Assembly (NCBI GenBank): GCA_038744685.1
Contig: JBCDMB010000025.1
Coordinates: 1 to 46,406 of the forward strand
DNA from: Verrucomicrobiota bacterium
GTDB taxonomy: Bacteria; Verrucomicrobiota; Verrucomicrobiia; Opitutales; Puniceicoccaceae
DNA: 46,406 bases
Reading direction: 5' to 3'
Notes under the pieces: generated by a model
What the model was told of the DNA's origin: nothing
The model's database searches: none
What the model saw: only the letters and a program-made list of their open reading frames with translations
Shown: positions 32,765-42,571 of the stretch, in pieces
How the letters are laid out: each line of letters opens with the position of its first letter
How positions within the stretch are numbered: the first letter of the stretch is position 1
Made by a program: the position numbers and the translations under genes

Positions 32765-33203
<439 letters not shown>

Positions 33204-34209: not shown

Positions 34210-34609
34210 TCAAAAGTCCATTCATTCGTCAGAGATTTTATATAGAGACGTCTCGCCTAAGAAGGAACCTGATTTTAACTTCAGGCACCTTCCCTCCCGC
34301 TTGAAGCAGCATTAGTACTGGGAGAATGGACTCTGTTGTTAATCCGTAAAGGGCTACGTTGTCTTTTCGGTGAAGATCGACCAAGGGTGACTAGGATCGA
34401 CTTGCCGATTATTGGATATGGAAGTATCCAAAAATTAGATACAGAACTTTATTTGAATTGGCCCTACAATTGCTGCGTCTTGACGGGTGGCGGTTTGAGT
34501 TTTAGGAGAGTGTTAGGGTAGTGAGCGGAACAGCTCATGCATCTAAATCATTTGGCCTAAAAAAGGGGGGTTTTTTCAAAAAATTTTCCAAAAATCTTCA
34601 CCGCCGGAG

Positions 34610-34695
34610 TTATTCACAATGCCGATTTTGGTCATCAACATCTGTAAATTCCTAAGCGGCAGATACTTCGGGACTTATTCACAAAGATATTCACA
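34610..34695 (+). promoter_or_regulatory. Cluster of three DnaA-box-like sites
   Basis: TTATTCACA at 34610-34618 and 34675-34683 and ATATTCACA at 34687-34695 match the DnaA box TTATNCACA (the last with one change), all in the same direction. An AT-rich stretch (34575-34596) lies just upstream. They could form a DnaA-controlled region or part of an origin. No dnaA or gidA gene is nearby to support an origin. Confidence 0.45.
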
Positions 34696-34739
34696 AGTTA
34701 CTACACATCAACACTTTACGAACGATATTATTTGACACG

Positions 34740-35779
34740 TTGGGAGCTTTCATCCTTACTTTGAAGTGTTCCTTCGGGGGCGTGATCTTTGACAGAAGCG
34801 AGGCGAGTAGGAGAGCCACTCCGGTGGTTCACTGAAAGCTTCAGGATAATCCTCGGACTTCGGTCCGATAAATGGTCGGGATGAACTGGCGTTCCTGGCC
34901 CCTGCTACGAGTAGCCCTCGGGTTGCACTGTAAGCCTTCGGGTAAACGAGAGAAGCAGGCAGATGTCACCAACTCCGGCGAAAAGGGTCGTGCCTTTTCG
35001 TATCACCACGATAGCGGAGTTTGGCGGCGAGCGGTGGCCAAGGGGCAGCGTCAAATACGCGGTGCCTAGGCGAGAACCAACCGCGAAGCCGAGTGACGCT
35101 TTTACCTTTCGGTTCGGAAAGTAGAGGCGAACACAGTCGGTCTCAGACCGATAATTGCTACTGTGAGCCAGAGTGGAGAGTGAATGTCCGACAGTGTGGA
35201 CGAACAAAACGCTGTCAGATCGAATCGGTGTCGCAACCGGCGCGGGAAAAAGGACTTTACCTTCGCGAATTGAGTGCCCCACGTGGAAGTCGTCCAGGCC
35301 GGACGGGGACCATGGAAGCCCAATAAGATTCGAATAGCGGGAGGCCCCAAAGAGGTCGTCCGCCTGAGAAATGAACGCAATTTGAGGGTTAAGAGACAAG
35401 ACCCGTTGCTCATGGCAAACGGTCCGCCGAAATACGCGGATGCTGACCATGAGGTATAGGAATGGAAGTGGAGATCTCAGACGTTTCCAATCCGTGTCCG
35501 GACTGCGGCTGTCGGCAGACAGGTGCAAAACCAGGCAGAGAAGTCTCACCCAACAAAATGCTGGTGGTGACACCAGAATCAGGTTCCGCTGCGGGGCCGA
35601 AACGAAATCGCAATCGTCCTTGCGATACGACGCAGCGTCGGGGAACTATCAGCCAGTAACCGCTCGACGGGTGGTTAGGGCGCCAAATGATAGTGAAGCG
35701 AGGAAAGAGAGTGTGGCGAACTCCCAACCCTCACCTTTAATAGGTCCGTAGATCGGAAACGATCTGCGGGCCTTTTTTT
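34740..35779 (+). ncRNA. Candidate long structured non-coding RNA, about 1.0 kb, class unidentified
   Basis: No credible protein is encoded here, yet the segment is full of stable stems. Examples: 34744-34752 with 34833-34841; a UUCG hairpin (TCGGAC-TTCG-GTCCGA, 34853-34868); 34979-34986 with 34993-35000; TCGGTC-TCA-GACCGA (35137-35151) inside CACAGT/ACTGTG; CTGGTG-GTGA-CACCAG with a GNRA loop (35561-35576); and GCTGCG (35588-35593) with CGCAGC (35631-35636) extended by GTTCC/GGAAC and enclosing ATCGCAA/TTGCGAT. The strand ends in a textbook terminator at 35743-35779. A TTGACA (34732-34737) lies just before the proposed 5' end, though the -10 is poor. It does not match tmRNA, RNase P, SRP, 6S or intron cores by eye. 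Large bacterial RNAs such as GOLLD or ROOL are possible relatives, untested. Confidence 0.6.
35743..35779 (+). terminator. Intrinsic terminator of the candidate ncRNA
   Basis: GGTCCGTAGATCG and CGATCTGCGGGCC pair over 13 positions (two or three G-T pairs) around a GAAA loop, followed at once by seven T. It ends the long gene-free structured segment. Confidence 0.9.
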
Positions 35780-38722: not shown

Positions 38723-39568
38723 CTACTTGAGAACCGCTTCTTCCGAAACGTAACCCTCGGCCTTGCTCAGTTTCATCGCTACGAGCGAGAGGAGCACTCC
38801 GTAAATGATCTTCGAAGTGATGTCTGCTACTGTGTAGGTAATGTGGCGGCCGACCACACCCGCTTCACCGTCGAGCATGAGCGGCATTAGGTAGGCACCC
38901 GGATAGAGCATCCACGAGATCAGGAAGAGCCACCAGATCGATTCCAGTGTTTTCGCAGCATCGGCCGGAATGCCTTCTTTACCCTCGTTAATGACCTTTT
39001 TCTTCATCACATAGAGGATATCGATGAAGAACACAGTCGATATCGCACCCCAGATCAGCCAAACGGTTGGGTTGGTTACTTCATAAAACTGGCCGGCGTA
39101 TCCGGTTGCAATCATCAGAGTCCCCGAGATCCAGAACCGGTTCCGGACCGAAGAGAACTTACTCTTCGTCAGGGTCACCACAAAGAGGATCTGGAAGAGC
39201 AACATGGGAACATCGATCAACCAGTTCAGGTAACGGTAGCCGTTGTTAAACAGATCCTTTCCTTCCTGCAGCATGTAAAGACCCGTCGCGGGATCGAACG
39301 CAAAGGCGTCGGTCCAGTTCGTGGCCTGCACGTAGAGAAGCAGAGCGGCAGACACCATCACCACCCCTGAGAGGATGGAGGACATTCGGAATCGAGGAGC
39401 GACCTGTTTAATGGTCATGACAAAATACAACAACGCGGCAAGCATGGTTGCGTAACCGAGTGTGAGAGTATGAGCGGAGAGCTGGTAACCCATTTCCGTG
39501 AAACCGATGTCGAGACCGACATAGTTTTCGAAGGTAGCGTTACCGAGAGCGTTTTCTGTATCGGGCAT
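38723..39568 (-). CDS. Microbial rhodopsin with NDQ motif (light-driven sodium pump type)
   Basis: The start is set at the ATG at 39568, giving MPDTENALGNATFENYVG, which aligns with the KR2 N-terminus; the upstream in-frame extension to 39634 is not conserved. The 281-residue protein has seven membrane helices. In helix C, RYLNWLIDVPMLLFQ places Asn115, Asp119 and Gln126 at the KR2 positions 112, 116 and 123, the NDQ signature of sodium-pumping rhodopsins. Arg112, His33, Asp249 and the retinal Schiff-base Lys253 (ADITSKIIYG) are also present. Light drives Na+ export, generating a sodium-motive force. No retinal synthesis gene (blh) lies in the window. The thiamine operon upstream on the same strand is separated by 165 bp and is probably a distinct transcript. 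Confidence 0.95.
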   Translation of the reverse strand: MPDTENALGNATFENYVGLDIGFTEMGYQLSAHTLTLGYATMLAALLYFVMTIKQVAPRFRMSSILSGVVMVSAALLLYVQATNWTDAFAFDPATGLYMLQEGKDLFNNGYRYLNWLIDVPMLLFQILFVVTLTKSKFSSVRNRFWISGTLMIATGYAGQFYEVTNPTVWLIWGAISTVFFIDILYVMKKKVINEGKEGIPADAAKTLESIWWLFLISWMLYPGAYLMPLMLDGEAGVVGRHITYTVADITSKIIYGVLLSLVAMKLSKAEGYVSEEAVLK

Positions 39569-39733
39569 AGCTATAGTCTGAGGTTGGTGGTAGGGAGGCC
39601 AAAGAAAAGGGGTTCGAATCCATCCCGTTTTCAAACTGATCAGAGAGTTTGCTTCTCTAATTAGTGTTCCTTTTGAACCTCATTAGCTAAGGTTTTGGAC
39701 GCAAGCGATCCGTCAGAGAGTTCGAAAAAGCAG

Positions 39734-40537
39734 CTACAGACCAAAGTGATTGATGGGTCCATTACCCTTACCAAGAACCCGGTCTTTTCCGTTGAGAATG
39801 GCCTGATTGGTATACTGACAACCCTTCCGCACAGAGTCCTTCAAACCAAACCCCAAACTAAGATAAGTTGCGATACTGGAGGACAAACTACAGCCGGTTC
39901 CGTGGGTGTTCTTAGTCTCTACCCGAGGATTTGTAATGGTGGTGATTTGACCGGTTTCGGCTTCGTAGAGCGTGTCCACCATTTGGTCATCCAAACCTTC
40001 GAGATGTCCTCCTTTGAGAAGAACTGAAGTCTGGTAGTGTTTGCCAATCTCCTTCGTAGACTCCTGAAGAGATTCAGAATGAATCGATCGCCCCATCAGG
40101 ATTTCCGCTTCCTTGAGATTGGGAGTAATTAAAAGCGAGGCGGGCAAGAACTTTTTCAAACAGTTGACCGCGCTTTCCGCGATCAGCCGATCCCCTGAGG
40201 TCGCGACCATCACTGGATCTAGAACAATATTCCGAGCCCTGTATTCCGACAATTTAGCCGCAACCAATTCGATGACGTCGCAGGAATGGAGCATCCCGAT
40301 CTTGACCGCTCCAAATTCGATGTCACTGAGAACCGCGTCGAGCTGCTTTTCGAGATGGGAGAGTGGGATTGGGTGGATATCGGTAACGCCAAGGGTGTTT
40401 TGGGCGGTGGTAGCAGTGATCACGCTCGCCGCATACCCACCGCAGGCGGAGATGCTCTTGATGTCTGCTTGAATGCCAGCACAGCCACCGGAGTCGCTTC
40501 CTGCGATGGTCAATACGGATGGGTAACGGGTCGTCAT
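39734..40537 (-). CDS. thiD: Hydroxymethylpyrimidine (phosphate) kinase
   Basis: The start at 40537 (MTTRYPSVLTIAGSDSGGCAG) overlaps the tenA stop in an ATGA, so tenA and thiD are translationally coupled. The 267-residue ribokinase-fold enzyme has AGSDSGGCAGIQADIK (substrate and ATP site), VKIGMLHS, VLDPVMVATSGD and KNTHGTGCSLSSSIA (anion hole and catalytic Asp region, GTGC). It phosphorylates HMP and HMP-P in thiamine synthesis and salvage. It is the last gene of the operon. Confidence 0.96.
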   Translation of the reverse strand: MTTRYPSVLTIAGSDSGGCAGIQADIKSISACGGYAASVITATTAQNTLGVTDIHPIPLSHLEKQLDAVLSDIEFGAVKIGMLHSCDVIELVAAKLSEYRARNIVLDPVMVATSGDRLIAESAVNCLKKFLPASLLITPNLKEAEILMGRSIHSESLQESTKEIGKHYQTSVLLKGGHLEGLDDQMVDTLYEAETGQITTITNPRVETKNTHGTGCSLSSSIATYLSLGFGLKDSVRKGCQYTNQAILNGKDRVLGKGNGPINHFGL

Positions 40538-41187
40538 ACTGGCCACGTCTCTTTCCGATAAGCACTGTCCCAGAACATCCACTCCAGCCTCGAGGCTTTT
40601 TCAAAAGCGGCATCCATTCGTCTCAGCGTTTCTTCCGAAGCGGTTTCAGCGTGCTTATCGGTGATGGCTATTGCCTCGTTTACCGAATCGGCAAACTCCT
40701 CTCCTCCATACGTTGCAATCCATTTTTGATAAGGGTTTTCCTCCTGGTTCGTTTGATTCGCTAGAATGAAGTCACCCACCTCTTTATAGATCGTAAAACA
40801 AGGTAAAACGGCGGCCAATCCCTCCTCCAGTGGACGGGTATGAACCATGCGGCTGAGGTAGCTGTTATAGAGCTCACAGGTCGGCGAGATTTTTCCCAGG
40901 TCGGGGCCATTTTCGAGGTAAAGCTCATGGACGGCTTGTTCCACTTCGATAATTCCGGTGGCGGCGCTCAAAAAAAATTGAATATCCGGATCGTCGTTAC
41001 ACTTGATTCCGAGTGCGCCCAAGACCCGTTTGTATTCTGATAAATAGAGCGCATCCTGCTCGATATAGAATCGGAAAACCTCTTTCGACAAAGTGCCGTC
41101 CATCAGCTTTTCAATGAACGGATGTGACTTGATCTCACGTCTGATCGGATCGGTCTTGGCGTTTATCGTTTCGAACCAGTTCGGCAT
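40534..41187 (-). CDS. tenA: Aminopyrimidine aminohydrolase / thiaminase II (TenA)
   Basis: The 217-residue all-helical enzyme has HPFIEKLMDGTLSKEVFRFYIEQDALYL, the active-site Cys in AVLPCFTIYKEVG, and the Glu in RLEWMFWDSAY. It frees HMP from degraded thiamine (salvage) or cleaves thiamine. It overlaps the end of thiE by 25 bp and the start of thiD by four. Its position between thiE and thiD fits a salvage role. Confidence 0.95.
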   Translation of the reverse strand: MPNWFETINAKTDPIRREIKSHPFIEKLMDGTLSKEVFRFYIEQDALYLSEYKRVLGALGIKCNDDPDIQFFLSAATGIIEVEQAVHELYLENGPDLGKISPTCELYNSYLSRMVHTRPLEEGLAAVLPCFTIYKEVGDFILANQTNQEENPYQKWIATYGGEEFADSVNEAIAITDKHAETASEETLRRMDAAFEKASRLEWMFWDSAYRKETWPV

Positions 41188-41813
41188 AGTATTTCCTTTA
41201 GGTTGGTAGTAGTTCGCTCTGGGTCACAGGATCTGGAGATTGCGGATATGACCGCAATTCCATCCGACCCACTTTCAATCACTGCGGCGGCATTCCCTTC
41301 ATCAATTCCACCGATAGATACCAGTGGTTTTCCACTGATCTTCCGGATTTCTTCAATGCCTTCCAAACCGAGAGGAGGTTCCAGATCCAGCGTTTTGGTG
41401 TTGGTGGCAAAAACAGGGGAGAGTCCGAGATAATCCACCTCCAGACCGTTTGCCTCTTCTGCTTGCTCGAAACTGCCCACCGACCATCCGATGATCTTAT
41501 CGTCGCCGATCAGTTTCCGGGCAACCGAAGGGGGCATGTCGCTCTGTCCAAGGTGAACGCCGTCTGCGTTGACCGACAAAGCGATGTCGATCCGATCGTT
41601 CACGAGGAGCGGAACTTCATAGCGGTCGCAAACGGCTTTCGTTTCCACCGCCCTCCGATAAAACCTCTTGGTGTTCAGTTTCTTTTCCCGGAGCTGGACG
41701 ATGGTCGCTCCGCCTCTCAGGGTCGCTTCCAGAATTTGGATGAACTCATCGTCGTCGGAAACACGGTCATCGGTAACGAACATTAATGAGTAGTCTGGGG
41801 GAGGCGGTCTCAC
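41163..41813 (-). CDS. thiE: Thiamine-phosphate synthase
   Basis: The start is the GTG at 41813, which overlaps the thiM stop in a GTGA; this gives a 216-residue protein, the normal length. A longer in-frame extension runs inside thiM and is spurious. It has ATLRGGATIVQLREKKLNTK, VPLLVNDRIDIALSVNADGVHLGQSDMP (phosphate and Mg site) and GLSPVFATNTK, then PLVSIGGIDEGNAAAVI. It joins HMP-PP and the thiazole phosphate to give thiamine phosphate. Confidence 0.95.
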   Translation of the reverse strand: MRPPPPDYSLMFVTDDRVSDDDEFIQILEATLRGGATIVQLREKKLNTKRFYRRAVETKAVCDRYEVPLLVNDRIDIALSVNADGVHLGQSDMPPSVARKLIGDDKIIGWSVGSFEQAEEANGLEVDYLGLSPVFATNTKTLDLEPPLGLEGIEEIRKISGKPLVSIGGIDEGNAAAVIESGSDGIAVISAISRSCDPERTTTNLKEILCRTGSKR

Positions 41814-42571
41814 GATGTTGTGATCCCGTAGAGGCAATCGAGAAAATTCATTTGGAAGCTGCCCGGGCCCTTTGATAGGGCTGCCGCTTGACTGCCCGCT
41901 TCTCCCATGATCTCCATCGCGCTCAATGCGGCTGAGTGCCCATCGGAGTTTACCCCCAAGCAGGCTCCAATCACCGCAGTGGCGGTGCATCCCATACCTG
42001 TTACTGCGGCCATCATTGGGCTGCCCTCGTTCACCTCATCCACTTGAGTTCCTGTGACGACATAGTCAGTGGCACCACTGATCACAATCGTGTTCGAGAG
42101 GGATTGAGAAAGACTCTGAGCCGCGTCGATCGCCTCGGTGGAGGCTGCGGTGCTATCCACTCCCTTCGTGCTACTGGATACTTTCGCCAGTGCCATGATT
42201 TCGGACGCATTCCCCCGGATGACTGTGGGAGTGGCCGCCTCCATAATACTCTTGGCACTCTGATTGCGATACGGAGACGCTCCCATCCCAACTGGATCGA
42301 ATACAGACGGCTTGCCGAGCTCGTTCGCCTTATTCGCCGCCGACAACATCGCGTCCACCCATTCAGGACTCAGTGTCCCCATGTTGATGACCAAAGAGGA
42401 TGATATGGAGACGATATCTTCTACCTCTTCAATGGCATGCGCCATGACAGGCGAGGCTCCGATGGCCAATAGGGCGTTCGCGGTATTGTTCATCACCACG
42501 TAATTGGTGATGTTGTGCACGAGTGGTGACTGTTCCCGAATTTTCGTAATCGTTTGTTCAGTTGTGAGCAT
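41810..42571 (-). CDS. thiM: Hydroxyethylthiazole kinase
   Basis: The 253-residue protein has SPLVHNITNYVVMNNTANALLAIGASPVMAHA, VFDPVGMGASPYRN, VIRGNASEIMALA and AVTGMGCTATAVIGA, with the catalytic Cys of the ribokinase-like anion hole. It phosphorylates the thiazole moiety in salvage. It is the first gene of the thiM-thiE-tenA-thiD operon; all downstream starts overlap the preceding stop. No TPP riboswitch core was seen in the 150 bases upstream. Confidence 0.96.
   Translation of the reverse strand: MLTTEQTITKIREQSPLVHNITNYVVMNNTANALLAIGASPVMAHAIEEVEDIVSISSSLVINMGTLSPEWVDAMLSAANKANELGKPSVFDPVGMGASPYRNQSAKSIMEAATPTVIRGNASEIMALAKVSSSTKGVDSTAASTEAIDAAQSLSQSLSNTIVISGATDYVVTGTQVDEVNEGSPMMAAVTGMGCTATAVIGACLGVNSDGHSAALSAMEIMGEAGSQAAALSKGPGSFQMNFLDCLYGITTS

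Follow-up and report, generated by a model that had tools for sequence, protein, structure and literature searches.

The window analysed here is a whole contig of 46,406 nucleotides belonging to a Verrucomicrobiota genome of 3.64 Mb. When it was searched in full against Rfam 15 with cmscan, a match to the MISL RNA (RF03079) was found on the + strand at 34844-35724. The match spans model positions 1-751 and scores 350.8 bits (E 1.8e-104), where the gathering score is 274.6. The only other RNA matches at threshold were a tmRNA at 32765-33143 and one tRNA, and no threshold-level match to GOLLD, ROOL or OLE was obtained in the window. MISL is present in one copy in its own genome. The features of the locus are as follows.

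34560-34597, no strand: A/T-tract-rich stretch just before the first DnaA-type box, assigned by sequence
34610-34618, + strand: DnaA-type box TTATTCACA; the 46 kb window has just one other exact TTATNCACA site
34675-34695, + strand: double DnaA-type box TTATTCACA-aag-ATATTCACA, a direct pair with a 3 bp gap
34732-34761, + strand: putative sigma-70-like promoter, TTGACA (34732-34737), 17-18 nt, then CTTACT/TTACTT
34767-35779, + strand: predicted full MISL transcript, from the promoter-like site and the 5′ element compared with relatives; start ± 5 nt
34766-34843, + strand: 5′ extension outside the Rfam model, with a UUCG-hairpin region and a conserved element
34795-34842, + strand: helix P0, which closes the 5′ extension, 34795-34799 pairing with 34838-34842
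34844-35724, + strand: Rfam MISL RNA RF03079, model positions 1-751
35383-35406, + strand: strongly conserved MISL core TGAGGGTTAAGAGACAAGACCCGT, the pattern of which retrieves Verrucomicrobiota MISL
35588-35636, + strand: pseudoknot, GCUGC (35588-35592) pairing with GCAGC (35632-35636)
35742-35779, + strand: intrinsic terminator with a 14-pair stem, a 4-nt loop and a T run

Identity and structure of the RNA

The original prediction had placed at 34740-35779 a structured non-coding RNA of about 1 kb, of the size class of the ornate RNAs and of unidentified class, and had called for an Rfam scan. The full-length RF03079 match and the covarying helices described below bear out the first part of this claim. 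The class is a known one, since the match runs the full length of the model and lies well above the curated cut-off. The size of the RNA, its fold and the extra insertions that it carries relative to the RF03079 model might have suggested a class still absent from Rfam, but a full-length match with an E value of 1.8e-104 refutes this reading, the probability of which we consider practically nil. The locus is an added member of the already known MISL family. In the open literature searched, MISL has no assigned function and is mentioned only in a Ribonanza preprint.

The segment contains no credible protein-coding gene, as had been proposed. None of the five open reading frames overlapping the RNA matched Pfam, and the longest of them (antisense, 222 amino acids) is split between frames in relatives. 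The minimum free energy of the 1015 nt is −405.5 kcal/mol, a figure that stands without a shuffle control; the case for a structured RNA is made by homology and covariation, not by folding energy.

The transcript is predicted to be approximately 1,013 nt long, and the interval first proposed lies close to it. Transcription probably starts near 34767, a position set by the −10 element of the promoter-like site. This element is weak, and an automatic promoter scan did not report the site. Across MISL loci, the best sigma-70 scores for core-promoter matches were only modestly higher than in shuffled sequence.

Upstream of model position 1 (34844) lies a 5′ element, TTCNTTGANAGAAC, which is common to the relatives. 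It reads GATCTTTGACAGAAGC, a variant, at the window locus and GTTCYTTGATAGAAC elsewhere, and is free of mismatches in 103 of the 133 loci where it was located; six of these 133 proved to be mislocated and were dropped from later counts. After the element comes helix P0, the longest native version of which averaged 6.02 bp, as against 4.70 bp when partners were swapped (maximum 4.98 in 200 shuffles). The MISL gene extends beyond the Rfam model, with a conserved 5′ element and a closing helix outside it, and RF03079 does not reach as far as the conserved 5′ end of MISL.

Within the model, UUCG-capped stems are seen in the sequence as had been described (for example at 34858-34868), and the core signature TGAG-G-TAAGAG---AGACCCGT is present at 35383-35406. 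The terminator noted at the end of the segment is also there, its 14-pair stem (35742-35773) closed by a GAAA-type loop and followed by the T run. A 3′ hairpin and a pseudoknot, formed by the hairpin loop with a downstream strand, covary across 50 distinct homologues. The hairpin stem, 35582-35585 with 35595-35598, is 98.8% paired and covaries. The pseudoknot is paired in 94.8% of cells, and two of its pairs are changed on both sides (UA/CG/UG and AU/GC). When the pseudoknot partner was slid to other registers, pairing fell to 28-56%. Hairpin and pseudoknot together have 45 both-side-changed cells, compared with 20 in shuffles. Thus the inner part of a predicted long-range pairing, 35588-35592 with 35632-35636, stands as a covarying pseudoknot; the outer GUUCC/GGGAAC pairing is in competition with the covarying hairpin stem. 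The nested Rfam structure cannot show pseudoknots, and we therefore do not claim this one as new to the Rfam curators.

Distribution of MISL

At E 0.001, RF03079 matched 19 of 87 relatives, and in 15 of these the score passed the cut-off. Two genomes of the same genus that were examined gave no match by RF03079 or by the core pattern. The 24-base core pattern occurred in 69 of the 373 genomes of the order (the reversed control pattern in none), and a search of one genome per GTDB species yielded at least 119 stretches; the 80 core-pattern matches listed all bore Verrucomicrobiota names. Cultured MISL bearers include Haloferula rosea. Most MISL loci used below were gathered by exact match to the core pattern, which biases the set towards conserved cores and presumably leaves the upstream DNA unbiased. 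One genome of the order, G247, has two core matches (C5:185730 and C44:329225), where the other core-matching genomes have one.

DnaA-type boxes upstream of MISL

The DNA preceding the RNA contains three DnaA-type boxes that are absent from the original prediction: TTATTCACA at 34610, TTATTCACA again at 34675 and ATATTCACA at 34687. The last two form a double box, the exact pattern of which recurs nowhere else in the genome of 3.64 Mb. Of the 40 exact TTATNCACA sites in this genome, just two are set close together, and these are the ones upstream of MISL. Relative to the predicted start, the single box lies at about −150 and the double box at −72 to −92.

Boxes of this kind precede MISL throughout the set. 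The 8-mer TTATTCAC was present in 88 of 122 MISL loci (400 nt before the 5′ element); among letter-permuted 8-mers in the same 122 regions, the best other reached 25 and the median was 0.5. The flank controls contained TTATTCAC in 1 of 104 and 1 of 111 cases. Between −225 and −40 of the 5′ element, 89% of 116 loci had at least one TTATTCAC or TTGTTCAC box, against 0.9% of genomic windows, and 60% had two or more TT[AG]TTCAC boxes, against 1 of 15,120 genomic windows; this background consisted of 15,120 windows of equal size drawn from five genomes. By the TT[AG]TTCAC pattern, 13 of the 116 loci had no box. The upstream DNA falls into 27 mutually non-alignable clusters. Seventeen of their representatives have a box (0.3 in shuffled sequence) and ten have two (0.002 in shuffled sequence), so kinship does not explain the enrichment.

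The boxes begin some 50 nt upstream of the 5′ element, and all lie clear of the core promoter region. They hold this position although the neighbouring genes vary by clade, and therefore belong to MISL. Judged by eye from translations, the neighbours include an hrpB-like helicase with a typA-like GTPase, cysK with rho, and a peroxiredoxin with a glutamyl-tRNA-synthetase-like gene; no conserved partner gene of MISL was found among these clade-specific neighbours. No mention of boxes upstream of MISL was found in the open papers searched. The link between MISL and DnaA boxes is a new observation and is statistically strong.

The arrangement of the boxes resembles that of known DnaA targets. With up to two mismatches allowed, a box had a same-strand partner in 63 cases at a gap of 2 bp and in 16 at 3 bp; every other gap from 0 to 30 bp had between 0 and 10. 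Pairs separated by 2 or 3 bp are the ones that E. coli DnaA prefers (PMC11317965). A double box occurred in 52 of 120 loci; 2.8 Mb of background contained one such site, which lay in two overlapping stretches. When 27 whole genomes were searched for the exact double-box pattern, 14 matches were obtained. Ten were directly upstream of MISL (in G000, G029, G064, G125, G194, G215, G222, G223, G250 and G262), and the other four were elsewhere, in G034, G062, G064 (a second one) and G077. Two exact double boxes in members of one genus, G064:C96:738 and G077:C2:19369, lie approximately 8.7-8.9 kb from MISL.

The consensus is relaxed, as C and A are equally common at the ninth base. A motif this short and this loose could serve another regulator that shares it with DnaA, the binding of DnaA here being a prediction. 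We consider this very unlikely, because the paired spacing of 2-3 bp fits DnaA in particular and because the same or closely similar sites occur upstream of dnaA itself: of the 11 such regions examined, every one has TGTGAATAA, TGTGAACAA or a variant close to these. The whole of the host DnaA can be aligned with solved DnaA, its DNA-binding domain is canonical, and FGGRDHGTV was read in five Opitutales DnaA proteins.

Position of MISL relative to the origin of replication

At the window locus an A/T-rich tract is followed by DnaA boxes, and nowhere else in the genome do two exact boxes lie close together. As this genome is in contigs, its own origin could not be placed. These points are compatible with the upstream region being the chromosomal origin, oriC, and with MISL being an RNA transcribed from it. 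Among the homologues, however, only 38 of 103 MISL loci had an A5/T5 tract in the 80 nt preceding the first box, a number that is nevertheless enriched over the 9 of a control stretch. GC skew was read in five relatives and dif was located in three of these; since these genomes yielded no rRNA, the polarity of the skew was set by dif. In G034, the minimum of the cumulative skew falls at approximately 4.548 Mb, as does a box cluster adjoining a dnaN-like gene; this place is opposite dif and 108 kb from MISL. MISL lies on the terminus side in G134, G037 and G153; in G023, about 0.5 Mb separates it from the skew minimum. Skew, dif sites and the dnaN-linked origin thus place MISL away from oriC in the genomes examined, and a location at oriC is ruled out as a general rule. 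For the window locus itself we regard an origin as highly improbable.

The G034 site (G034:C1:4548470-4548630, L255) is a probable oriC in its own right, with DnaA boxes by the dnaN-like gene at the skew minimum, approximately 0.27 Mb from dnaA.

Proposed control of MISL by DnaA

The main rival to control of MISL by DnaA is that the array works as DNA, as a sink or recharging locus for DnaA of the datA/DARS kind, with transcription of MISL incidental or modulating. The boxes are dense, include double boxes and are stronger than elsewhere in several genomes, and the datA and DARS loci of E. coli are double-box loci; in PMC12371093, DARS1, DARS2 and datA are given a large share of chromosomal titration. 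A sink beside MISL would produce most of the same pattern. Against it, the chromosomal position of the array is not conserved, being near the origin in one genome and near the terminus in others, and the array remains near the MISL promoter and accompanies MISL into differing neighbourhoods. On balance we judge a sink unlikely.

Our preferred reading, which we think probably correct, is that MISL is a free-standing gene whose transcription is set by DnaA bound at the upstream boxes, and that its RNA acts in trans. From the boxes and their spacing we infer that DnaA would bind the array before the promoter and so set MISL transcription. In the homologues the boxes stand clear of the core promoter, on its upstream side, and activation would thus be likelier than steric repression. 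On this model the output of MISL would track active DnaA, and with it the initiation of replication or the state of growth, and the RNA would work in trans in the form of a folded particle. The loci that lack boxes (13 of 116), the modest core-promoter matches and the relaxed ninth base count against control by DnaA. The double-box array is the first concrete regulatory lead for MISL, and the hypothesis of a large structured RNA controlled by the replication initiator is directly testable.

What the RNA does is a guess: it may tune some process coupled to replication or growth. A bolder version, which we offer tentatively and think rather less than an even bet, is that MISL is replication-coupled, with DnaA driving its transcription across the Verrucomicrobiota and the RNA feeding back on the control of replication, the chromosome or growth. 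If true, the bacterial cell cycle would have a large ornate RNA built into its circuitry.

Comparison with known systems

The locus shares with the MISL of RF03079 a full-length covariance-model match, the conserved core and the host phylum, and differs from the model in its extra insertions, the 5′ extension, P0, the pseudoknot and the DnaA-type boxes upstream. It is like GOLLD, ROOL and OLE in size class, ornate fold and stand-alone gene, but has no covariance-model match to them. CcnA of Caulobacter crescentus is also a non-coding RNA gene with DnaA boxes, and is concerned with cell-cycle control (PMC8959179). CcnA differs in being 182 nt long, lying inside the origin, being presumably activated by CtrA and having weak boxes (PMC8959179), and no homology between it and MISL is claimed. 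The double-box DnaA targets of E. coli (DARS1/2, polA, purH, mioC and others) likewise consist of same-strand 9-mers 2-3 bp apart, whereas the boxes at MISL precede a large non-coding RNA gene and have a TT[AG]TTCAC consensus with a relaxed ninth base.

MISL was also considered as a phage-borne RNA and this was rejected, there being no sign of phage carriage beyond a single chimeric contig. In this contig, L299 of IMG/VR (1-2347), the 3′ two-thirds of a MISL RNA and the 5′ end of a single-stranded RNA phage are joined on the same strand. The MISL part is truncated at its 5′ end, with 567 nt aligned to the model at 254.5 bits (approximately 480 nt by BLAST); the phage part has a gene matching Phage_mat-A followed by a head-protein-like gene. 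Single-stranded RNA phages have no DNA stage, and L299 therefore derives from RNA. The join is probably a chimera of assembly, library or metatranscriptome, and may be a natural RNA recombinant. Indirectly, the contig implies that the source sample contained MISL RNA.

Two further features of the window were noted. A bacteriorhodopsin-like gene (38723-39634) adjoins a thiamine cluster of thiD, tenA, thiE and thiM-like genes (39734-42571). The tmRNA, 1.6 kb upstream of MISL, has an unusually long predicted tag, AKDNVISFPGAAPEAMAA.
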